Shown piece after piece: positions 33,284 to 58,055 of a stretch of DNA of 64,000 nt. Source of the DNA: Protula sp. h YS-2021 (taxonomy: Eukaryota > Annelida > Polychaeta > Sabellida > Serpulidae); the NCBI GenBank assembly GCA_949752745.1, contig OX457028.1:5494188-5558187 (forward strand), read 5' to 3'. Position 1 is the stretch's first letter. Each line of letters starts with the position of its first letter. The notes beneath the pieces are model-generated. The model was not told where the DNA came from. It ran no database searches and worked only from the letters and a program-made list of their open reading frames with translations. Position numbers and translations under genes: made by a program.

Positions 33284-35480
33284 AGTTTCAGCGTCCTCTG
33301 CTTTTGAAATCGTTGCTGGAATCAACTTTGATGGAACACTAGTGACAAATTTATCATCAGTGCCCATACGAGTGATTGAACTGAGTCCGTGAAAGGTCTT
33401 GAGCATGATATTATCAAAGTGCGCCTTCCGGACAGTTGAAGTACCCTTGTCCACGTGCGCCTCCTCGATAGGGGATGTGTCCATGTGAACCTGCATGTCC
33501 TCTACAGGGGTGAGGTCATGTCCATATGCGCGTCCTCGACAGATGGTACGGCCATTTCGGTGATCGACTCCTCGACAGGGGGTGTGACTGTCTGAACCTG
33601 CATGTTCTCTACAGGGGGTGAGGTCATGTCCACGTGCGCGTCCTCGACAGATGGTACGGCCATGTCGGTGATCGACTCCTCGACAGGTGGTGTGGCTGTG
33701 TGAACCTGCATGTTTTCTACAGGGGGTGAGGTCATGTCCACGTGCGCGTCCTCGACAGATGGTACGGCAATGTCGGTGATCGACTCCTCGACAGGGGGTG
33801 TGGCTGTGTGAACCTGCATGTTCTCTACAGGGGGTGAGGTCATGTCCAGGTGCGCGTCCTCGACAGATGGTACGGCGATGTCGGTGATCGACTCCTCGAC
33901 AGGGGGTGTGGCTGTGTGAACCTGCATGTTCTCTACATGGGGTGAGGTCATGTCCACGTGCGCGTCCTCGACAGATGGTACGGCCATGTCGGTGATCGAC
34001 TCCTCAACAGGGGGTGTGGCCATGTGAACCTGCATGTTCTCTACAGGGGGTGAGGTCATGTCCACGTGCGCGTCCTCGACAGATGGTACGGCCATGTCGG
34101 TGATCGACTCCTCGACAGGGGGTGTGGCTGTGTGAACCTGCATGTTTTCTACAGGGGGTGAGGTCATGTCCACGTGCGCATCCTCGACAGATGGTACGGC
34201 AATGTCGGTGATCGACTCCTCGACAGGGGGTGTGGCTGTGTGAACCTGCATGTTCTCTACAGGGGGTGAGGTCATGTCCACGTGCGCGTCCTCGACAGAT
34301 GGTACGGCCATGTCGGTGATCGACTCCTCAACAGGGGGTGTGGCCATCAGTGGAGGTCATGTCCACGTGCGCGTCCTCGACAGATGGTACGGCATTGTCG
34401 GTGATCGACTCCTCGACAGGGGGTGTGGCTGTGTGAACCTGCATGTTCTCTACAGGGGGTGAGGTCATGTCCACGTGCGCGTCCTCGACAGATGGTACGG
34501 CCATGTCGGTGATCGACTCCTCAACAGGGGGTGTGGCTGTGTGAACCTGCATGTTCTCTACAAGGGGTGAGGTCATGTCCACGTGCGCGTCCTCGACAGA
34601 TGGTACGGCCATGTCGGTGATCGACTCCTCGACAGGGGGTGTGGCTGTGTGAACCTGCATGTTCTCTACAGGGGGTGAGGTCATGTCCACGTGCGCGTCC
34701 TCGACAGATGGTACGGCGATGTCGGTGATCGACTCCTCGACAGGGGGTGTTGCTGTGTGAACCTGCATGTTCTCTACAGGGGGTGAGGTCATGTCGACGT
34801 GCGCGTCCTCGACAGAGGGTGAGGCCATGTCGACGTGCGCCTCCTTGGCAGGACGTATGGCCGTGTCGACGTGATTGACCTCATTGACATCTACAGTGGA
34901 CGTGGCCGTGTCACTGTGCACGTCCTCGACTGGAGATGGGGCCGGGTCAACGTGAATGTCGTCGGCAGGGGATGTGGCCGTTTGAACGTGCGCCCTCTCC
35001 ATAGTAGACATGGCTGTGTCCAAGTGCGCCTCCTCGTTGGTAGTCGTGGCAGTGTCGAAGCGCGATTTTTCGTCACTGCTCGCGTTATTGTCAGAGTGCC
35101 AGTCATCGCTACTGCTCGCGTTATTGTCAGAGTACCAGTCATCGCCACTGCTCGCGTTATTGTCAGAGTGCCAGTCATCGCCACTGCTCGCGTTATTGTC
35201 AGAGTGCCAGTCATCGCCACTGCTCGTGTTATTGTCAGAGTGCCAGTCCTCGTCATTATTCGTTTCCTCAACACCGGGAGCCTTGGCCTTTTTGCGCCAT
35301 TCAAGACCTTGGACGCCATAGTCATACCGAATTTCATCTCCCACATTTATGTCTTTCGACGCAAAAAACGCTACATAGGGCTTGTCTCTTACGACTACCT
35401 TTTTGACCGCTGCATTTGCCTTAGAGGCGCATCTATCATTCAAGTAGTGTGCTGGACACTGGTTGTTCGTCCCATCAATG
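33284..35480 (-). CDS. SET domain C-terminal half, acidic repeats and 36-residue tandem repeats (exon 5)
   Basis: Starts with IDGTNNQCPAHYLNDRC and FASKDINVGDEIRYDYG, the end of the SET domain with its catalytic-type Tyr; the NHS motif reads LNDR. Next come about five DDWHSDNNASSG units (35080-35250). Then come twelve 108-bp units plus a degenerate thirteenth from about 33520 to 34830. Each unit encodes 36 residues with VENMQVHTATPPVEESITD and VPSVEDAHVDMTSPP. Unit starts fall at 108-bp spacing except one of 85 (near 34340), a 23-bp deletion that shifts frame to a stop at 34328. A second shift is a missing G near 33507. Together they remove 24 bp, so the exon's overall phase is kept. Confidence 0.85.
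33520..34830 (-). repeat. Coding minisatellite, 108-bp unit, 12-13 copies
   Basis: AGATGGTACGG marks the units at 33541, 33649, 33757, 33865, 33973, 34081, 34189, 34297, 34382, 34490, 34598 and 34706, with a degenerate unit near 34814. Units differ at only a few sites, so the array is young or homogenised. Confidence 0.95.
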
Positions 35481-51278: not shown

Positions 51279-52050
51279 GTCAGAGCACCTGTATACCAAA
51301 AATTACTGCATTGTTTTGAATTTGAATTTAAACCACCGACACAGAAAAGATTGTACCAGCTTCAAGCTTTAAAAATATTCAGCAACAACTCAAGATACAC
51401 TGTGTAAGTTTTTTTTTAAGGATTGTATTCTGTACTTTCCTCGCCTTGGATCGTAGATGTTAAGGTAGTAATTTTGATATTTCCATGGAGATGAACAATT
51501 AAGTAGAATTAAGGAGAGGATGTGCGGGGGGGAGGGGGGGGGGGGGTGGGGGGACGAGGATGTTTCAAAGCTTTGAAAATTTGAATTTTGTCAAAACCGG
51601 TATGGTTCCAAATTGATTCGAATTTTGTATACCAGAACTCATGTACAACAATTCAATACCGGTCTGTCAGTCCCTTTGCGGTACAAATCCAAATCAATTC
51701 GAATTTGCTATGAAATCGATTCGAATTCGGTATACCGTCTCAGCGACATACCGATTTAATACTGCTGGTTTTTGAGGTATGGTTCCAAATCGAGTAGTTG
51801 GAAAACGAGAGTTCGAAAACAGGAAGTGACGTCTTCAGACCCCCCTCCCCTCCCCCTCGCCCTCCCCTCCCCTCCCCCTCCCCTCCCTCTCCCCCTCCCC
51901 CTCCCCCTCCCCCTCCCCTCTCCCCTAGGAGGCATAACCCTAAGTCACCTCTCATTCATCATGACGTCATTAGTCACGTGACCTCTCAATCATCATTAGC
52001 CACGTGACCTGTCAATCATGTGTGATGTGACCCCAACCCTATATGAGGAA
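51279..52050. other. Low-complexity DNA: G-runs and (CCCCTC)n
   Basis: G-rich tract 51523-51556; ATTCGAATTTTGTATACC-type inverted words at 51560-51790; C/T-rich tract 51840-51925; CACGTGACCTSTCAATCAT repeated at about 51976 and 51999. The glycine- or proline-rich frames across the tracts are artefacts. Confidence 0.55.
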
Positions 52051-52315
52051 TGTTCCGGCCTGAATGGTTCACTTGGTAGAGCAGAGGACTCGTTAGCGGA
52101 CCAATGATCTGATGGTCGGTGGATCGATCCCGCCCTCGGGCATCACTTTCACCTTCTGTCTATCATACCATGGGGACCCCCTCCTCCCTCCAGGGGTCCT
52201 CCATGTGAGGACTTCCACCATCTGTCTATCATACCATGGGGACATCCATCCCCTCTCCCCCTCCCCGGGTCCTCCATGTGAGAACTTCCACCATCTGTCT
52301 ATCCTACCATGGGGT
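52051..52315 (+). repeat. tRNA-derived SINE-like unit with tandem CTGTCTATCATACCATGGGG body
   Basis: A box TGGTTCACTTGG (52065-52076) and B box GGATCGATCCC (52121-52131) are followed by three ~60-80 bp units sharing CCATCTGTCTATCATACCATG. The body word is related to ATGATAGACAAATGGTAGAA in the unit at 56983-57400, in the opposite sense. No cloverleaf closes, so it is not a working tRNA. Confidence 0.6.
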
Positions 52316-52529
52316 GAAAACAGTGGCTCTTGCTGTTGTACTGTTGTACTTTTGTGCTCTTCTTGGATATTACATGAAGAACAAGTGAAGGATTGGTTGG
52401 AGTACACATAGGAGACAAAGTGAAAGATTGGTTATTCTTTGAAAAAAAGGAAGTGACAGATTGGAGACATAGAGACGAATTGGCACGAGTCGTGGTAAGT
52501 GACCTTTTTTTCTTGTTTTTTTGTAACAT

Positions 52530-53070
52530 TATGTGACATTATTTAGCATTATGTAACTCTGTAACATTATGTAACATTATGTAACATTATGCAACATTAT
52601 GTAACAATATGTAGCATCATGTAACATCAGGTAACATCATGTAACATCATGTACCACTATGTAACATCATGCAACACTATGTGACTATGTAACCTCATAT
52701 GGCTATATGACTATGTAAGGAGTATGTAATTGCTATGTGAGCATAATTAGTCTAAAGGATGTATGTCATTATCAGATCTTTCAATAGATCTGCCTCCGTG
52801 GCTCACTTGGTAAAATCGCAGACTCGTAAGCAGAAGATTGTTGGTTCGAGTCCGGCTCGGGACAAACTTTTTTTTTGTTTACTTTTGTGACTCTGTAACA
52901 TCATGTGACATTATGTGACATCATGTGACTGTTACTTTATGTGACTCTGTGACTTTATGTGACTATGTAACATTAGGTAACATTACGTGACTCTGTAACA
53001 TCATATAACATCATGTGACACTATGTGACATCATGTGACACCATGTGACATTATGTGACATTATGTGACT
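52530..53070. repeat. Decamer satellite (ATTATGTAAC)n interrupted by a tRNA-like unit
   Basis: About 15-20 imperfect copies of ATTATGTAAC/ATCATGTGAC lie on each side of 52791-52866. The period is about 10 bp, one helical turn. Confidence 0.8.
52791..52866 (+). repeat. tRNA-Thr(CGT)-like sequence, probably SINE head or pseudogene
   Basis: A box TGGCTCACTTGG (52799-52810), loop CTCGTAA, B box GGTTCGAGTCC (52843-52853). The acceptor and anticodon stems do not pair well, so I do not call a functional tRNA. Confidence 0.55.
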
Positions 53071-53084
53071 CTTTTTTTAAGTAT

Positions 53085-53290
53085 ATGGAAGGTCTCAGAC
53101 TGTAGGAAACAATCGATACATTTCAGAGTGTACTCGTTCAGACCTCGGAAACGATCAATAAATTTCATAGTGCACTCATTCAGAGCGTGGGAACGATCAA
53201 TAAATTTCAGAACATCAAAGGCCTCAGACCGTGGTAACGATCGATAAATTTCAGAGTGCACTAGTTCAGAGCGTGGGAACGATAAATAAA
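53085..53290. repeat. ~55-bp tandem repeat, four units
   Basis: ACGATCAATAAATTTCAGA with TTCAGAGCGTGGGAACGAT repeats at about 53095-53285, immediately left of the large inverted-repeat element. Confidence 0.75.
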
Positions 53291-53330
53291 TTTGAGAAGG
53301 AATGGGATTTTCCCCCACTCTAAGTCTTAT

Positions 53331-54203
53331 GTTATAGTAGTGGGAAAATGGTGGTTCTAAACCAACTTTAACAAATGTAGTTTTTGGAAAACATATGATA
53401 TATAAAATAAGTTTTAGCATTTTACCATGCTACTTATTCAAATGTTCAAAAGATTTAGTAGTGCGAAAATGGTTCTAGAATAACCTTAACAAATGTAGTT
53501 TTTGATAACATATGATATATAAAATAAGTTTTACCATTTTACCATGCTACTTTTTCGAATGTTTTAAAGCTACAGTAGTGGGAAAATGGTGGTTCTAGAC
53601 CAACTTTAGCAAATTTAGTTTTTGACAACATATGATATATAAATTAGGTTTTAACATTTCACCAAGCTACTTATTCAAATATTCTAAAGTCGTAGCAGTG
53701 GGAAAATGGTAATTCTGAACCAACTTTAACAAATTCAGTTTTTGAAACATATTATGTATAAAATAGGTTTGAACATTTTACCAAGCTACTTACTCGAATG
53801 CTTTGGAGTCATAGTAGTGGGAAAATCAAGGTTCTAAACCAACTTAAACAAATTTAGTTTTTGACAAGTCCCATTCGAAACACGTGTTTGAATTATTTTT
53901 TGGAACATATTACGTCATGGTATTGTTCAATAATTTTTTTAGCAAGTTCAACAATTGTTCAGTAAAATTGTTCAACAAGTTGTTTAACATGTTCAACATG
54001 TTCAACATGTTCAACAAGTTGTTCAACATGTTCAACATGTTGTTGCTCAACATGTTGTTCAACATGTTCAACAAGTTGTTGTTCAATAAGTTGTATGTAA
54101 AGCTATGTTTAAAGACTTTCTCATCATTTGAATAGTGTACGTTGAACCGAAAGGATGTATAAATGCAACATTTGTTCGAAATTTTACAATTGGCCACAAA
54201 GTC
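53331..54203 (+). repeat. Left terminal inverted repeat
   Basis: Unit starts near 53337, 53457, 53576, 53696 and 53815, the last truncated at about 53868, where CCCATTCGAAACACGTG begins. The GTTCAACATG array covers 53940-54090 and is self-complementary. The final ~100 bp (CTTTAAAG... to CCACAAAGTC) contains the first codons of the plus-strand gene. Confidence 0.9.
54155..54175 (+). promoter_or_regulatory. TATA-like block shared by both terminal repeats
   Basis: GGATGTATAAATGCAACATT occurs at the inner edge of each arm (plus at about 54153, minus at about 56118). It overlaps the ATG of the plus-strand frame, so it may be coding rather than promoter there. On the right it precedes the PC4-like gene by about 190 bp and could act as its TATA box. 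Confidence 0.35.
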
Positions 54204-54862
54204 TTAAAAGACACTTAAAGGCTGCTCACACTTCAGAAGTGGATGAAGAATAGGATATGGAAAACGCTGTAAAACTACCCTTCACGGAAACTTTAGATGA
54301 GTCTTCTATGGAAAGTCAAAGCGTCAATATAACTGAAAAGAATGCACATGCTTGCACAGAATGTGGTGCATTATACAACAGCGAAGAAGCTTTACTCAAA
54401 CATACGGAGACGTGTGGTAAGGATGCTGATGACAGGAGTTCTGAAAGTGAGTCAGAAACAGACTCTGAAAATGAGTCAGAAATAGACTCTGTTTAGCATG
54501 ATATGGTTCAAGAAGTCTACGATGACTATGATGACAAATTTCAAGAAAAGGTTTTAGAATATGAAGAACAAGGACTTGAAGATGCGCGTGAAATAGCAAG
54601 TTATGACCTTCGACCCATTTATAAGCATGGACTAAAACAACTGTTTATGAGACTGTTCAACTATACCCATCGTCTAGAACAAAGCCAACATTATCAAAAG
54701 ATTTTAGAGGACTTTAATTACTTTGTTGATGAAAAACATTATAAGTATTCAAAGGCACTAAAGGCGGCTGTAAGGAAAAACAATGCATTATTTGAAGAGC
54801 TACTAGATATGGAGGAGGAGGATGGTAGCAGTGACGAAGAAAGTGGGTGGCATGGACAGTGA
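54155..54862 (+). pseudogene. Zinc-finger / acidic / helical protein frame with two in-frame TAG codons
   Basis: A single frame of 236 codons starts at ATG 54155 inside the left terminal repeat. Residues 1-25 form a C2H2 finger (YKCNICSKFYNW.., RHLKAAH). TAG occurs at 54251-54253. Residues 34-112 include a second CxxC..H..C finger (HACTECGALYNSEEALLKH) and a Ser/Glu/Asp run. The second TAG is at 54494-54496. Then a helical acidic part follows (MVQEVYDDYDDKFQEKVLEY, LRPIYKHGLKQLFMRLFNY) ending TGA at 54860. AATAAA lies 46 bp further (54908-54913). The similar layout before and after each stop argues for one ancestral protein. From memory, related C2H2 plus W..-type helical proteins are common repeat-borne ORFs in molluscs and cnidarians; the function is unknown to me. 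Confidence 0.7.
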
Positions 54863-54907
54863 AGTACAACAGATGCAGAAGAATAGTTTTATTTGACTAA
54901 ACTTTAT

Positions 54908-54913
54908 AATAAA
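54908..54913 (+). terminator. Candidate polyadenylation signal AATAAA
   Basis: Canonical AATAAA 46 bp after the stop of the plus-strand zinc-finger frame, within the element. Confidence 0.5.
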
Positions 54914-55396
54914 GACTTTGCAAATGTAGTAATATTTTATTAACTTAAGCGTTTTGTAATATATGTCTTGCTTCACAACATATGAAGTCGCGAGAGGCTA
55001 TGGTCCCTGGTGTGGTGTGAATTCACCCGTAGACCATGTATCATATATTGTGTATTATAATTAATTTTGTATTATTATGTATTATATTCAAGTATATTAT
55101 CATTATGTATTATATTCAAGTATTGTATTATTATGTATTATATCCAAGTATTGTATGAGAAAAATAAATAAGTTGAAAACATCATACGTGTTTCTTTTAT
55201 TAAATATTACAAATATTTACAATTATGATAAAAAAACTATTTCAAATACATATTATGCTAATACATGTACCTACACATGCGAACTTAAATTGATAAGTTT
55301 ACAAATGTTATAAAATCTGACTTTACGTCCACATAGATAATGTTAATTCATTTCAAAGTCATGCTGTTAAAATTGTATACAGTCGCATATAACTTT
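54914..55396. other. Intergenic spacer of the element
   Basis: Between the two converging genes: a run of TGTATTATATTCAAGTAT repeats (55055-55150) and the inverted pair TATGGTCCCTGG / CCGTAGACCATG near 55000. No further gene. Confidence 0.5.
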
Positions 55397-55930
55397 CTAC
55401 TCAACCATCTTCTGACAGTCACTACATTTATACACATCCATTTTCTGAAGCATGAGATCCACTGACGTCATTTGCTTCTTCAGCATTTGCCAGTCTTTCA
55501 ATGATAACAAAATTTCCTTCTTGGTAGGATATAACCTCCCAGATGCATGATTTGTAATATATTTACGAATGTTAACCATCACTTTCTGTTGATATTTCAC
55601 TAATTTAATATATGTTTCTCCATTAATGGGTATCATAACCGGTGAATAGTCTACACGCATCTTCTTCATGGTGGTATCAGCTTTACGCTCCGGTTCTCGC
55701 TTCATATTAGGCTCTGTCTTAATTTTTCGCATTTTACACGGCGCCGTCTTAGCTGGTAACTCATCTCGTTTTATCTTTCTAAAATGTGGTCGCTGCTGAC
55801 GTGACTTCACCTTGGACTCTACCATGGGCATTGCCTTAGACTTTGCTGTAGGTGCTGTCTCAGGCTTTGCTATAAAATTTTCTGCAGGTATTGCCATAGA
55901 TGGTAGTTGTTCTTCACTCACTGCAGACAT
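55397..55930 (-). CDS. PC4-like single-stranded DNA-binding domain protein
   Basis: Intact 177-residue frame; ATG at 55930 (MSAVSEEQLPSMAIP) chosen over an upstream GTG. Residues 1-100 are basic and low complexity (KAMPMVESKVKSRQQR, PCKMRKIKTEP). Residues about 103-165 match the PC4/Sub1 fold: PINGETYIKLVKYQQKVM, VNIRKYITNHASGRLYPTKK and EILLSLKDWQMLKKQM, corresponding to GK.LVDIREYY....G...PGKKGISL...QW..L. The tail has CSDCQ. PC4 domains dimerise and bind ssDNA or melted duplex in transcription and repair. In this element it could coat ssDNA during replication or serve transcription; that is inference. It runs toward the plus-strand gene, and its upstream side abuts the right terminal repeat, which carries the same TATA-like block. 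Confidence 0.8.
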   Translation of the reverse strand: MSAVSEEQLPSMAIPAENFIAKPETAPTAKSKAMPMVESKVKSRQQRPHFRKIKRDELPAKTAPCKMRKIKTEPNMKREPERKADTTMKKMRVDYSPVMIPINGETYIKLVKYQQKVMVNIRKYITNHASGRLYPTKKEILLSLKDWQMLKKQMTSVDLMLQKMDVYKCSDCQKMVE

Positions 55931-56067
55931 GTTCACTCTTCAGTATCTTGATACAGAATGTGCGTTATGTCTGAGGGCAGGTGCCTTTTGTGCTCTATAG
56001 GGAGTTGTCACACTCGAGGTTGGACACACTATGTCCCAATATGTTTAGAAATAACTTTATCATATGT

Positions 56068-56884
56068 GACTTTGTGGCCAATTGTAAGATTTCGAACAAA
56101 TGTTGCATTTATACATCCTTTCAGTTCAACCTACACTATTCATATGATGAGAAAGTCTTTAAACATAACATTATATACAACTTGTTGAACATGTTGAAGA
56201 ACATGTTGAACAACATGTTGAACAACATGTTGAACATGTTGAACATTTTAAACATGTTGAAAATGTTGAACATTTTAAACATGTTGAACATGTTGAACAA
56301 CTTGTTGAACAATTGTTGAACTTGTTAAAAAAATTGTTGAACAATACCATGACGTAATATGTTCCAAAAATAATTCAAACACGTGTTTCGAATGGGGTTT
56401 GTCATTCGAATACATGTTTGAATGGTGTGCTGTTCTCACCAACTTATTTTTTACATCATATGTTGTCAAAAAACGAAATTTGTTAAAGTTAGTCTAGAAG
56501 CATCGTTTTCCCCTGCTATGTCTTTAGAACATTCGAAAAAGTAGCATGCTAAAATGATAAAACTTATTTTATACATCATATGTTATCAAAAACTACATTT
56601 GTTAAAGTTGGTTTAGAACTACCATTTTTCTCCTATTATGACTTTAGAACATTCGAATAAGTAACATGGTAAAATGCTAAAACTTATTTTACCTATCATA
56701 TATTTTCCAAAAACTACATTTTTTAAAGTTGGTCTAGAACTACCATATTCCCACAACTTTAACTTTAGAATATTCGAATAAGTAGCATGGTAAAATGCTA
56801 AAACTTATTTTACACATCATATGTTGTCAAAACTAAATTTGTTAAAGTTGGTCTAGAACCACCATTTTTCCACTACTACAACAT
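56068..56884 (-). repeat. Right terminal inverted repeat
   Basis: Reads as the reverse complement of the left arm, with unit boundaries (AAAGTTGGTCTAGAA) near 56478, 56598, 56718 and 56838 and the CATGTTGAAC array at about 56175-56345. It keeps the ATG-TATAAATGCAACATT start, but that frame closes after about 17 codons because the homology stops there. Confidence 0.9.
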
Positions 56885-56982
56885 GGGGGTTTTTGGACGG
56901 GGTCGAGGAAGGGGTGTTTGGACCAGACATGAATGTGTGCATTATAGCCTTATATGGCATGTTTTCACAAAACATTCTGGTT

Positions 56983-57400
56983 CAGTCCGGAATAGCTGAG
57001 TTGGTAGAGCGTGGGACTCCTGGTCGGACCCATGCTCGGAAGGTTGGTGGTTCGAGCCCGGGGATGGCAGCCTAACGATAAACCATAGATTGCATTATGA
57101 GAGTGTATTATGAAGGTATGATAGACAAATGGTAGAAGGGACGTCTCCTAGGGGTCTGACGTCATTATGACGTCACAAGTGGCGTGAAACACCCATGGGG
57201 GTTTTGGACCAATAGAATGTTCTAGAAAAAAGTGGCGTGGAACTCTCTTTTCCTCATGATAGACAGATGGTAGAAGGGACGTCTCCTAGGGGTCTGACGT
57301 CATTATGACGTCACTTCCTGCAGTAGAAGTCTCGTTTCCTCATGATAGACACATGGTAGAAGGGACGTCTCCCAGGGTCTGACGTCACTATGACGTCACA
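56983..57400 (+). repeat. tRNA-derived SINE-like unit with repeated GATAGACAAATGGTAGAAGG body
   Basis: A box TAGCTGAGTTGG (56993-57004) and B box GGTTCGAGCCC (57049-57059) fit Pol III consensus well, but the middle is too long for a normal cloverleaf and lacks a pairing acceptor stem. The body repeats GATAGACARATGGTAGAAGG with GTCTGACGTCATTATGACGT three times (57119, 57259, 57346). It lies just outside the right end of the 3.55-kb element. Confidence 0.65.
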
Positions 57401-58055
57401 CTTCCTGTGCTGGAACTGTCGTTTTCCAACTAATAGCATCCTTGTTTTTCAAGACTTTTTTTTCAGGGATACCCGTGTCAGTTTGGTTATCTAGCCCCAT
57501 GTGTAGTTGTATTCGATAAGTAAAAACTAATACCAATAACAAATAAATAAGAAAGAGATACGGAATTAGCCAATAATACTTCAGGATTTCTGTTGACTGA
57601 CAACTGGCGTGTGTGACGTAAACACTAGACCTTATGACGTCATGGGTTTTCTACCACTCAGTCCTTGTGCTTCATCTTAATCCTAATGCCCGCTAGTCTA
57701 ATGTTTAGTACGTGTCGTTGTTTTTCAACAGCCGACCTCTTCGGCCGGTCGGTCCGTTGTGTATAACACCTTTTTACTCCACAGATCCCCTGGGATTCCA
57801 CGAAAATAGTACTCATAAAAGAGAGGAACTGCTTTTTAAAATATGTTCAACAACCAATCTGTTGTGTGTAACACCTTTTCGCCCCCCCCCCCCCGACCCA
57901 CTGGGAATTCAACTAAAATAATACTAATAATAGAGCGGAACTACTTTTTAAAATATCAATCCGCTCTGTGTTTACACGTAATAGATAGATCACATCAGAA
58001 GTCAGCTGTCTTATAACAACGAACACTCAGAAGTAGGCCTGCCATTTTTTCTACT
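57401..58055. other. Intergenic DNA, short duplicated segment
   Basis: GTTGTGTRTAACACCTTTT with CCCACTGGGAATTCAAC/CCCCTGGGATTCCACG occurs at about 57755-57815 and 57863-57925, a ~105-bp tandem duplication. No gene. Confidence 0.45.

Follow-up and report, generated by a model that had tools for sequence, protein, structure and literature searches.

A gene-bearing element with Maverick-type ends in the annelid Protula sp., a probable satellite of resident Maverick/Polinton elements

The window analyzed here is a 64,000-nucleotide stretch of the genome of the serpulid annelid Protula sp. h YS-2021 (GenBank assembly GCA_949752745.1, contig OX457028.1, positions 5,494,188 to 5,558,187 of the forward strand), which contains an element with long inverted arms that enclose two genes, ORF1 for a zinc-finger protein and a gene for a PC4-domain protein. 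The element and its relatives are called satellites below, on grounds given later; feature coordinates are collected in Table 1. A preliminary description made from the letters alone had reported an inverted arm of 873 bp (53331-54203) and one of 817 bp (56068-56884), each layered into ~120-bp tandem units, a unique block and a GTTCAACAT array, and we found them as described, the unique block being short. After the array comes another unique block, of which the left and right versions are 94% complementary over 124 nt. The extent given there (53331 to 56884) proved too small. Twenty further loci were fetched from the 863-Mb genome and their arms were compared outward to the terminus. The arms of these copies continue to a sharp terminus, which in the window corresponds to 51793 for the left arm and 57434 for the right arm, and ends at 53331 and 56884 were therefore rejected. 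The right arm of the window copy is shortened. It covers 498 of the 2226 bp of the Maverick end described below versus 1925 bp on the left, and it ends in ATTAGT instead of the AGTAGT with which the left end begins. The arms recur beyond chance, as a genome search with arm DNA, in which 40 of 4983 candidates were scored, gave 67 matches when those of the window itself are counted.

Both outer arms, in opposite orientations, are copies of one end, the integrase-side end, of a Maverick (Polinton) element of the same genome. L059, one end of a 15.9-kb element at C1:94391274, aligns with the left arm of the window over 1859 of 2078 bp (82%). The alignment runs through the 10-, 42- and 120-bp arrays, after which L059 passes directly from the 120-bp units into Maverick genes, without the inner arm of the satellite. 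The first frames of L059 are the ones that lie ahead of the integrase in L032 and L053, and L059 was called the integrase side on the basis of these neighboring frames, not of an integrase from this copy. The opposite, polymerase-side end (L060) matches the window arm only in its outer ~0.7 kb. In six satellites with this type of end (C-type copies L009, L011, L012, L013, L021 and L025), each of the 12 arms aligns with 1505-2153 of the 2226 bp of the integrase-side end (73-86%) versus 346-797 of 960 bp for the polymerase-side end. The outer part is common to both Maverick ends, and it is the inner ~1.4 kb that tells them apart. Since the C-type arms all match the integrase-side end, these satellites carry the same Maverick end at both termini.

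Two other satellites, at C1:92268716 and C1:1743862, have different ends. The outer part of both arms derives from Mavericks of the A/B type. It aligns with 602-826 of the 1101 bp of the A integrase-side end (86-87%) and with 551-846 of the 942 bp of the B integrase-side end (82-85%) versus 114-292 of 379-424 bp for B polymerase-side ends. Similarity of these two copies to the C type is confined to ~400 bp within the inner 120-bp units, and none of the five C-type left arms tested matched A/B ends over more than 147 bp. The best reading is that satellites have changed ends between Maverick lineages. The preliminary description had suggested dependence on a larger relative as one possibility, and a larger relative with the same ends is indeed resident in the genome as an autonomous-type Maverick.

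The terminal motif and target footprint are likewise of the Maverick type. Most ends of the family begin with AGTAGT followed by TGGAAAACGAGAGTTC or variants, and some begin with AGTAGG. With up to two mismatches allowed, the terminal motif occurs at 1865 plus-strand and 1864 minus-strand places in the 863-Mb genome (3,729), versus 1 and 0 places for a reversed control pattern. For vertebrate Mavericks, AGT twice (AGTAGT) is reported as the commonest end motif, with target duplications of 6 bp (PMC8097293). Two-ended satellites numbered 11 (eight of the 20 loci, two genome-wide end pairs and the window). Their 6-bp target duplications are perfect in six (L011, L013, L018, L019, L025 and C1:92268716), match at five of six positions in three (L009, L012 and C1:1743862) and match at four of six in L021. 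The flanks of L011, L013 and L018 were read after the boundary had been set at the AGTAG start, a shift of one to four bases. The satellite family thus has Maverick ends and the 6-bp footprint, the window copy having the AGT-AGT motif with the ATTAGT variant on its right.

Among 100 motif places listed, 24 inverted pairs were recognized by eye. Five are spaced at 0.7-2.2 kb, nine at 4.1-7.7 kb, one at 9.7 kb, eight at 14.3-16.5 kb and one at 22.5 kb. The five shortest form a very short third class with the same ends that resembles miniature inverted-repeat transposable elements (MITEs). The 9.7-kb pair (L057) has frames that we take to resemble a Harbinger transposase and that are probably a nested insertion. 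The 22.5-kb pair (L058) contains a Maverick PC4 and also frames, presumably of a BEL/Pao integrase region, that are probably nested.

Six mid-size pairs were chosen by their ends alone. ORF1 was present in five (L051, L052, L054, L055 and L056), and four of these five also had PC4, which is split into two pieces in L056. The sixth, L053 (6.6 kb), is a deleted Maverick with integrase and ATPase frames. Conserved boundaries, target duplications and the recovery of both genes in copies bear out the earlier proposal of a discrete multi-copy element.

All eight large pairs (14-16.5 kb) gave pieces with Maverick-type frames of one common set, and Pfam support was drawn from five of the eight copies. 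The integrase core (rve) scored 43.9 bits in L032 and 19.1 bits, under the cut-off, in a partial frame of L064. A chromodomain scored 35.7 bits in L065, and a packaging ATPase was found in L032 and L065 (Adeno_IVa2, 32.3 and 30.5 bits; Pox_A32, 28.5 bits). The adenovirus-type protease of L033 is a probable assignment, at 20.8 bits slightly below the 21.3 cut-off. In L034, two neighboring polymerase-like frames of 555 and 632 codons carry motifs that we take to be those of a family B polymerase. A Maverick PC4 match lies 4.0-4.3 kb from one end in seven of the eight large pairs and a broken copy is found in the eighth; genome-wide, 145 of 150 scored places of the Maverick PC4 were free of stops. 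Among the Maverick target duplications tested, six of seven were perfect 6-bp repeats and the remaining one matched at five of six positions.

Ten Maverick frames were searched against 26 sequences, these being the 20 loci with flanks, five mid-size pieces and the window element. The nine frames other than PC4 were not found within the element in any of the 26. This holds for the retroviral-like integrase gene, which occurs in the same-ended 14-16.5-kb elements, for the polymerase-like frames (polymerase only by the motifs taken as such above) and for the ATPase, protease and candidate capsid frames. The hits were PC4 relatives (33-53% identity) plus a single polymerase-side frame at L027:7383-8501, ~1.1 kb outside the traced satellite arm. 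With seven of the ten frames, the same queries did recover parts of other Maverick copies. By eye, no transposase-like long frame besides ORF1 and PC4 was seen in the window element. The copies searched are thus without these nine Maverick frames, and the element has two genes of its own. The L027 frame beyond the arm points to neighboring or nested elements.

ORF1, on the plus strand, had been noted as a zinc-finger frame. That frame is part of one gene with two C2H2 fingers, the first of which sits within the inner arm. The window ORF1 is interrupted by two in-frame stops, the later of which is absent from most copies compared, and in L051, L052, L055 and L056, where it is longest, the frame extends for 238-254 codons from stop to stop. 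Both fingers of the L052 protein exceed the Pfam cut-offs and the protein also has an acidic stretch. Its helical part gave a model with six helices and a predicted local distance difference test score (pLDDT) of 68.8, too weak for a fold search. A 32.5-bit match of phrog_6283 (function unknown) over the first finger was treated as a generic finger match. The ratio of nonsynonymous to synonymous substitution rates (dN/dS) was 0.23-0.79 among 12 stop-free frames from 10 loci, two loci contributing two frames each, and 38 of 56 pairs fell at 0.30-0.50. Pairs with a synonymous difference of 5% or less were excluded, here and for PC4. By this measure ORF1 looks constrained. ORF1 was not found in L032-L034, pieces from three copies that tile ~0-5.0, 5.1-10.1 and 10.05-15.05 kb of the same-ended Maverick, nor in the Maverick pieces L059-L065. 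A search of viral contigs with the ORF1 alignment returned nothing informative. Two relatives, P0001 and P0002, lie on contigs of 1597 and 871 bases.

The minus-strand gene had been suspected to encode a PC4 protein, and the profile search agrees (PF02229, 30.5 bits versus a cut-off of 25), as does a PDB search in which PC4 chains were matched at a best E of 5.4e-5, or 2.7e-5 with a three-copy profile. The same profile scores 42.7 bits in the satellite L052 and 34.9 bits in the Maverick L034. A single-sequence structure model of the window protein (pLDDT 50.5, no strands) was too poor to judge the fold, and this protein as a single query retrieved nothing useful from a large protein database and viral contigs. 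Satellite and Maverick PC4 proteins are 38% identical over 91 residues. A 19-sequence tree places the five satellite PC4s in one cluster (91/99, under the 95/80 mark) with the Maverick PC4 outside. Four proteins from other contigs (P0003, P0004, P0006 and P0007) are 45-62% identical to satellite PC4s over 67-129 residues and 32-39% identical to the Maverick PC4. As these proteins are closer to the satellite PC4s than to the Maverick PC4, the satellite PC4 line is not young.

Against the genome, the window PC4 protein gave 6669 candidates; the 150 that were scored were all 89-99% identical, and 136 were without stops. One tandem array on C9 accounts for 37 of these places. The other 113, the window's counted, include 102 stop-free places, counted irrespective of whether a whole satellite surrounds them. 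Within one group of equal score, four copies have DNA identities of 96.2-99.4% across 1385-1582 bp. The C9 array (L066, C9:41774501-41919028) has a 1.92-kb unit containing the satellite PC4 gene; adjacent units are 99.8% identical where compared (579 bp), and the array has an orientation switch. It is tandem satellite DNA born from the element interior. The arms were also considered as ordinary satellite DNA, which they are not.

Several copies are rearranged into inverted forms. L009 and L019 are inverted dimers with ORF1 twice, and L017 and L022 are inverted dimers with both genes twice; L051 has two ORF1 genes in direct order. L067 is a palindrome with 99.7% identity over 1,883 nt about a center of about 11 bases, and inverted PC4 pairs with an identical 157-bp gap were found at three loci. 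These structures suggest that a linear replicon is copied by a snap-back or panhandle route and that the palindromes may spread in their own right. The preliminary description had proposed replication through single-stranded or hairpin-ended DNA, which the near-perfect palindrome fits but does not prove.

Taken together, these data lead us to the view that the element is a helper-dependent, gene-bearing, non-autonomous satellite of Maverick/Polinton elements with switchable ends, to which we assign a probability of roughly three in four. Its own genes and the absence of the tested core genes are observed; the dependence on a helper is what we infer from them. The 6-bp footprint and the common ends imply that the helper Maverick integrase would insert the satellite, and the protein-primed polymerase of the helper would copy it from those common ends. 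PC4 may coat the single strands displaced during strand-displacement replication and the two fingers of ORF1 may bind the arms. The integrase-side end may stay on both termini for a signal (packaging or origin) that the polymerase-side end does not have, and symmetric ends and palindromic variants could arise through the snap-back or panhandle copying considered above. Satellites would follow their helpers by exchanging ends, such that their ends match resident Mavericks while their PC4 has diverged. A tentative extension, rather doubtful at present, is that the element is the satellite virus of an endogenous virus. Maverick particles would then also package it, with the tandem arrays of the integrase-side end as the packaging signal and hence present on both termini, PC4 and ORF1 would tilt replication from helper to satellite, and lineage jumps would occur via end exchange.

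A number of observations weigh against the helper-dependent reading. Neither replication nor expression nor mobilization of the satellite was observed. The window copy is without a target duplication and its ORF1 is broken. L011 is without both genes, L009 and L012 are without PC4, and L025 is without ORF1, so neither gene is needed in cis by every copy. PC4 constraint is weak, as dN/dS was 0.43-0.91 (14 pairs from six stop-free copies). On the helper side, the C-type Maverick copy having the matching end carries a broken PC4. Searches of PDB, Pfam and PHROGs gave no profile match for the Maverick polymerase-like frames or for the 463-codon capsid-like frame, which is a capsid candidate by size and place. 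Polymerases of the PF03175 family gave 84 matches in the genome (89 of 4183 candidates scored), none of which lies within the eight large pairs. The ORF1 fingers weakly resemble frames in the other Mavericks L029-L031 (E 0.007 in L030, finger-only), the ORF1 relative P0001 shows a finger likeness to a Maverick frame at E 3e-4 in L029, and, as the Maverick lineages were only sampled, one with ORF1 could exist.

The most serious competitor is a plain MITE-like derivative formed by internal deletion of a Maverick and moved in trans, its two genes being leftovers without a role. Maverick DNA makes up the ends and outer arms, the regular gene set of the same-ended Mavericks includes PC4, and L053 with its integrase and ATPase frames shows that true deletion derivatives exist; the weak constraint on PC4 and the copies from which one or both genes are absent also suit this explanation. 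We nonetheless consider it unlikely. In the Maverick lineages sampled, the satellite interior was not a subset of the Maverick, because ORF1 was not found in three pieces of ~5 kb, each from another copy, that together span the same-ended Maverick, and because satellite and Maverick PC4s share just 38% identity versus 73-87% for the matching arms. The age of the satellite PC4 line, the apparent constraint on ORF1 and the integrase-side end at both termini argue in the same direction.

Two other origins seem very improbable. One is a cut-and-paste transposon of the Foldback/Galileo type whose transposase-bearing copy was not seen and whose Maverick likeness came from chimerism. Long inverted arms with internal tandem repeats are typical of these elements, which also have arm-length variants, as does the satellite. 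In contrast, the satellite has ~2 kb of collinear similarity to a Maverick end, the Maverick terminal motif, 6-bp duplications, same-ended elements that encode an integrase, and conserved genes that are not transposases; neither a P- or MULE-type transposase nor its target duplication was seen. The other is the remnant of an independent small DNA virus, the Maverick-like integrase of which was lost from present copies. The two genes and the occurrence of relatives of both proteins on other contigs of unknown source would agree with a virus, whereas the copies searched yielded none of the Maverick-type integrase, polymerase-like and capsid-like frames tested, and two or more lineages of resident Mavericks account for the arms.

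Comparison with known systems places the satellite closest to Maverick/Polinton elements. AGT-AGT ends, 6-bp duplications, long inverted termini, the end DNA of resident Mavericks and a PC4 gene are common to both in this genome. The satellite differs in size (5.5-7 kb versus 14-16.5 kb), in being without the nine other Maverick frames tested, and in its own ORF1, divergent PC4 and integrase-side end on both termini. The symmetric left-end mini-genomes and defective genomes of adenovirus are protein-primed linear replicons with one end duplicated that need a helper. The satellite resembles them in having one end on both termini, and presumably also in helper need and protein-primed copying, but it is a heritable family with its own genes and many integrated copies. 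Phage satellites (P4 and the phage-inducible chromosomal islands, PICI) and virophages are small elements with genes of their own that use the machinery of a larger element; here, the helper would be an integrated virus-like element of the same genome, and packaging is only a supposition. The satellite PC4 shares with the PC4/Sub1 single-stranded DNA-binding coactivators a domain above the Pfam cut-off that aligns along PDB PC4 chains. It differs in being encoded by mobile elements and in its own basic N-terminal tail and CxxC tail.

In the full-text searches made, outside subscription papers and Repbase, no description of a gene-bearing, non-autonomous or satellite Polinton/Maverick was found, nor was any account of PC4 in Polintons or of adenovirus left-end palindromes. 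Entries for non-autonomous Polintons may exist in Repbase. Mavericks are regarded as viruses that live as transposons. The family supplies numerous similar copies, a helper in the same genome whose ends match, and naturally occurring exchanges of ends between helper lineages, and the end requirements of Maverick replication, integration and perhaps packaging are therefore testable. It should also be testable whether endogenous viruses have their own parasites, as phages and giant viruses do.

Table 1 Features of the element in the window (positions of the 64,000-nucleotide stretch)
Feature	Position	Strand	Basis
Whole element, 5.64 kb, Maverick-type ends	51793..57434	.	Termini from comparison with 20 fetched loci
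Left terminal motif AGTAGTTGGAAAACGAGAGTTC...	51793..51840	+	Comparison of copies; motif pattern counted genome-wide
Outer left arm, integrase-side end of lineage C Maverick	51793..53870	+	Alignment to L059:75-2291
Degenerate tRNA-like unit in left arm	52058..52142	+	Rfam tRNA 22.3 bits, below 29-bit cut-off
10-bp tandem arrays, two stretches	52522..53069	.	Repeat analysis
42-bp tandem units	53095..53297	.	Repeat analysis
~120-bp tandem units, left	53334..53867	+	Also in Maverick ends of L059, L053
Inner left arm, satellite-specific: unique block, GTTCAACAT array, unique block	53868..54210	+	Contrast with L059
ORF1, two-finger C2H2/acidic/helical protein, broken by two stops	54155..54862 (about)	+	Copy comparison, Pfam; relatives P0001, P0002
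PC4-domain protein gene, open, 179 aa	55397..55936	-	Pfam PF02229; PDB PC4 chains
Inner right arm: unique block, GTTCAACAT array, unique block	56068..56440	-	Arm comparison, repeat analysis
~120-bp tandem units, right	56441..56884	-	Arm comparison; array itself measured 56441-56878
Shortened outer right arm, terminal-motif variant (reverse complement) at end	56885..57434	-	Maverick-end comparison

No true tRNA gene was found in the window by ARAGORN, and the Rfam match in the left arm is below the cut-off; a list of tRNAs obtained with ARAGORN at low threshold was judged to be noise. In other copies, tRNA-like units score 29.4-31.8 bits with Rfam (L011, L016 with three, L019 and L022; six matches among 16 loci searched). 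The tRNA-like unit of the right arm (window 56981-57060) has the orientation of the left end and is not inverted as the arm would require. MicroRNA families were considered for the GTTCAACAT array and every score was far under the cut-offs.

Other Maverick lineages are represented by L029-L031, pieces beside three PF03175 polymerase places, which have different end sequences. L029 and L030 become alike at AGTAGTCTATTGCC, another end sequence with the same AGT-AGT start. An open frame of 1351 residues was found at 12 places of these polymerases. One PF03175 polymerase (C5:57716368) lies ~15 kb left of the satellite copy L010 (C5:57731500-57739500). Elsewhere in the window, at 33461-34873, long open frames run across a 108/36-bp tandem repeat of high G+C content and perhaps encode a repetitive protein.

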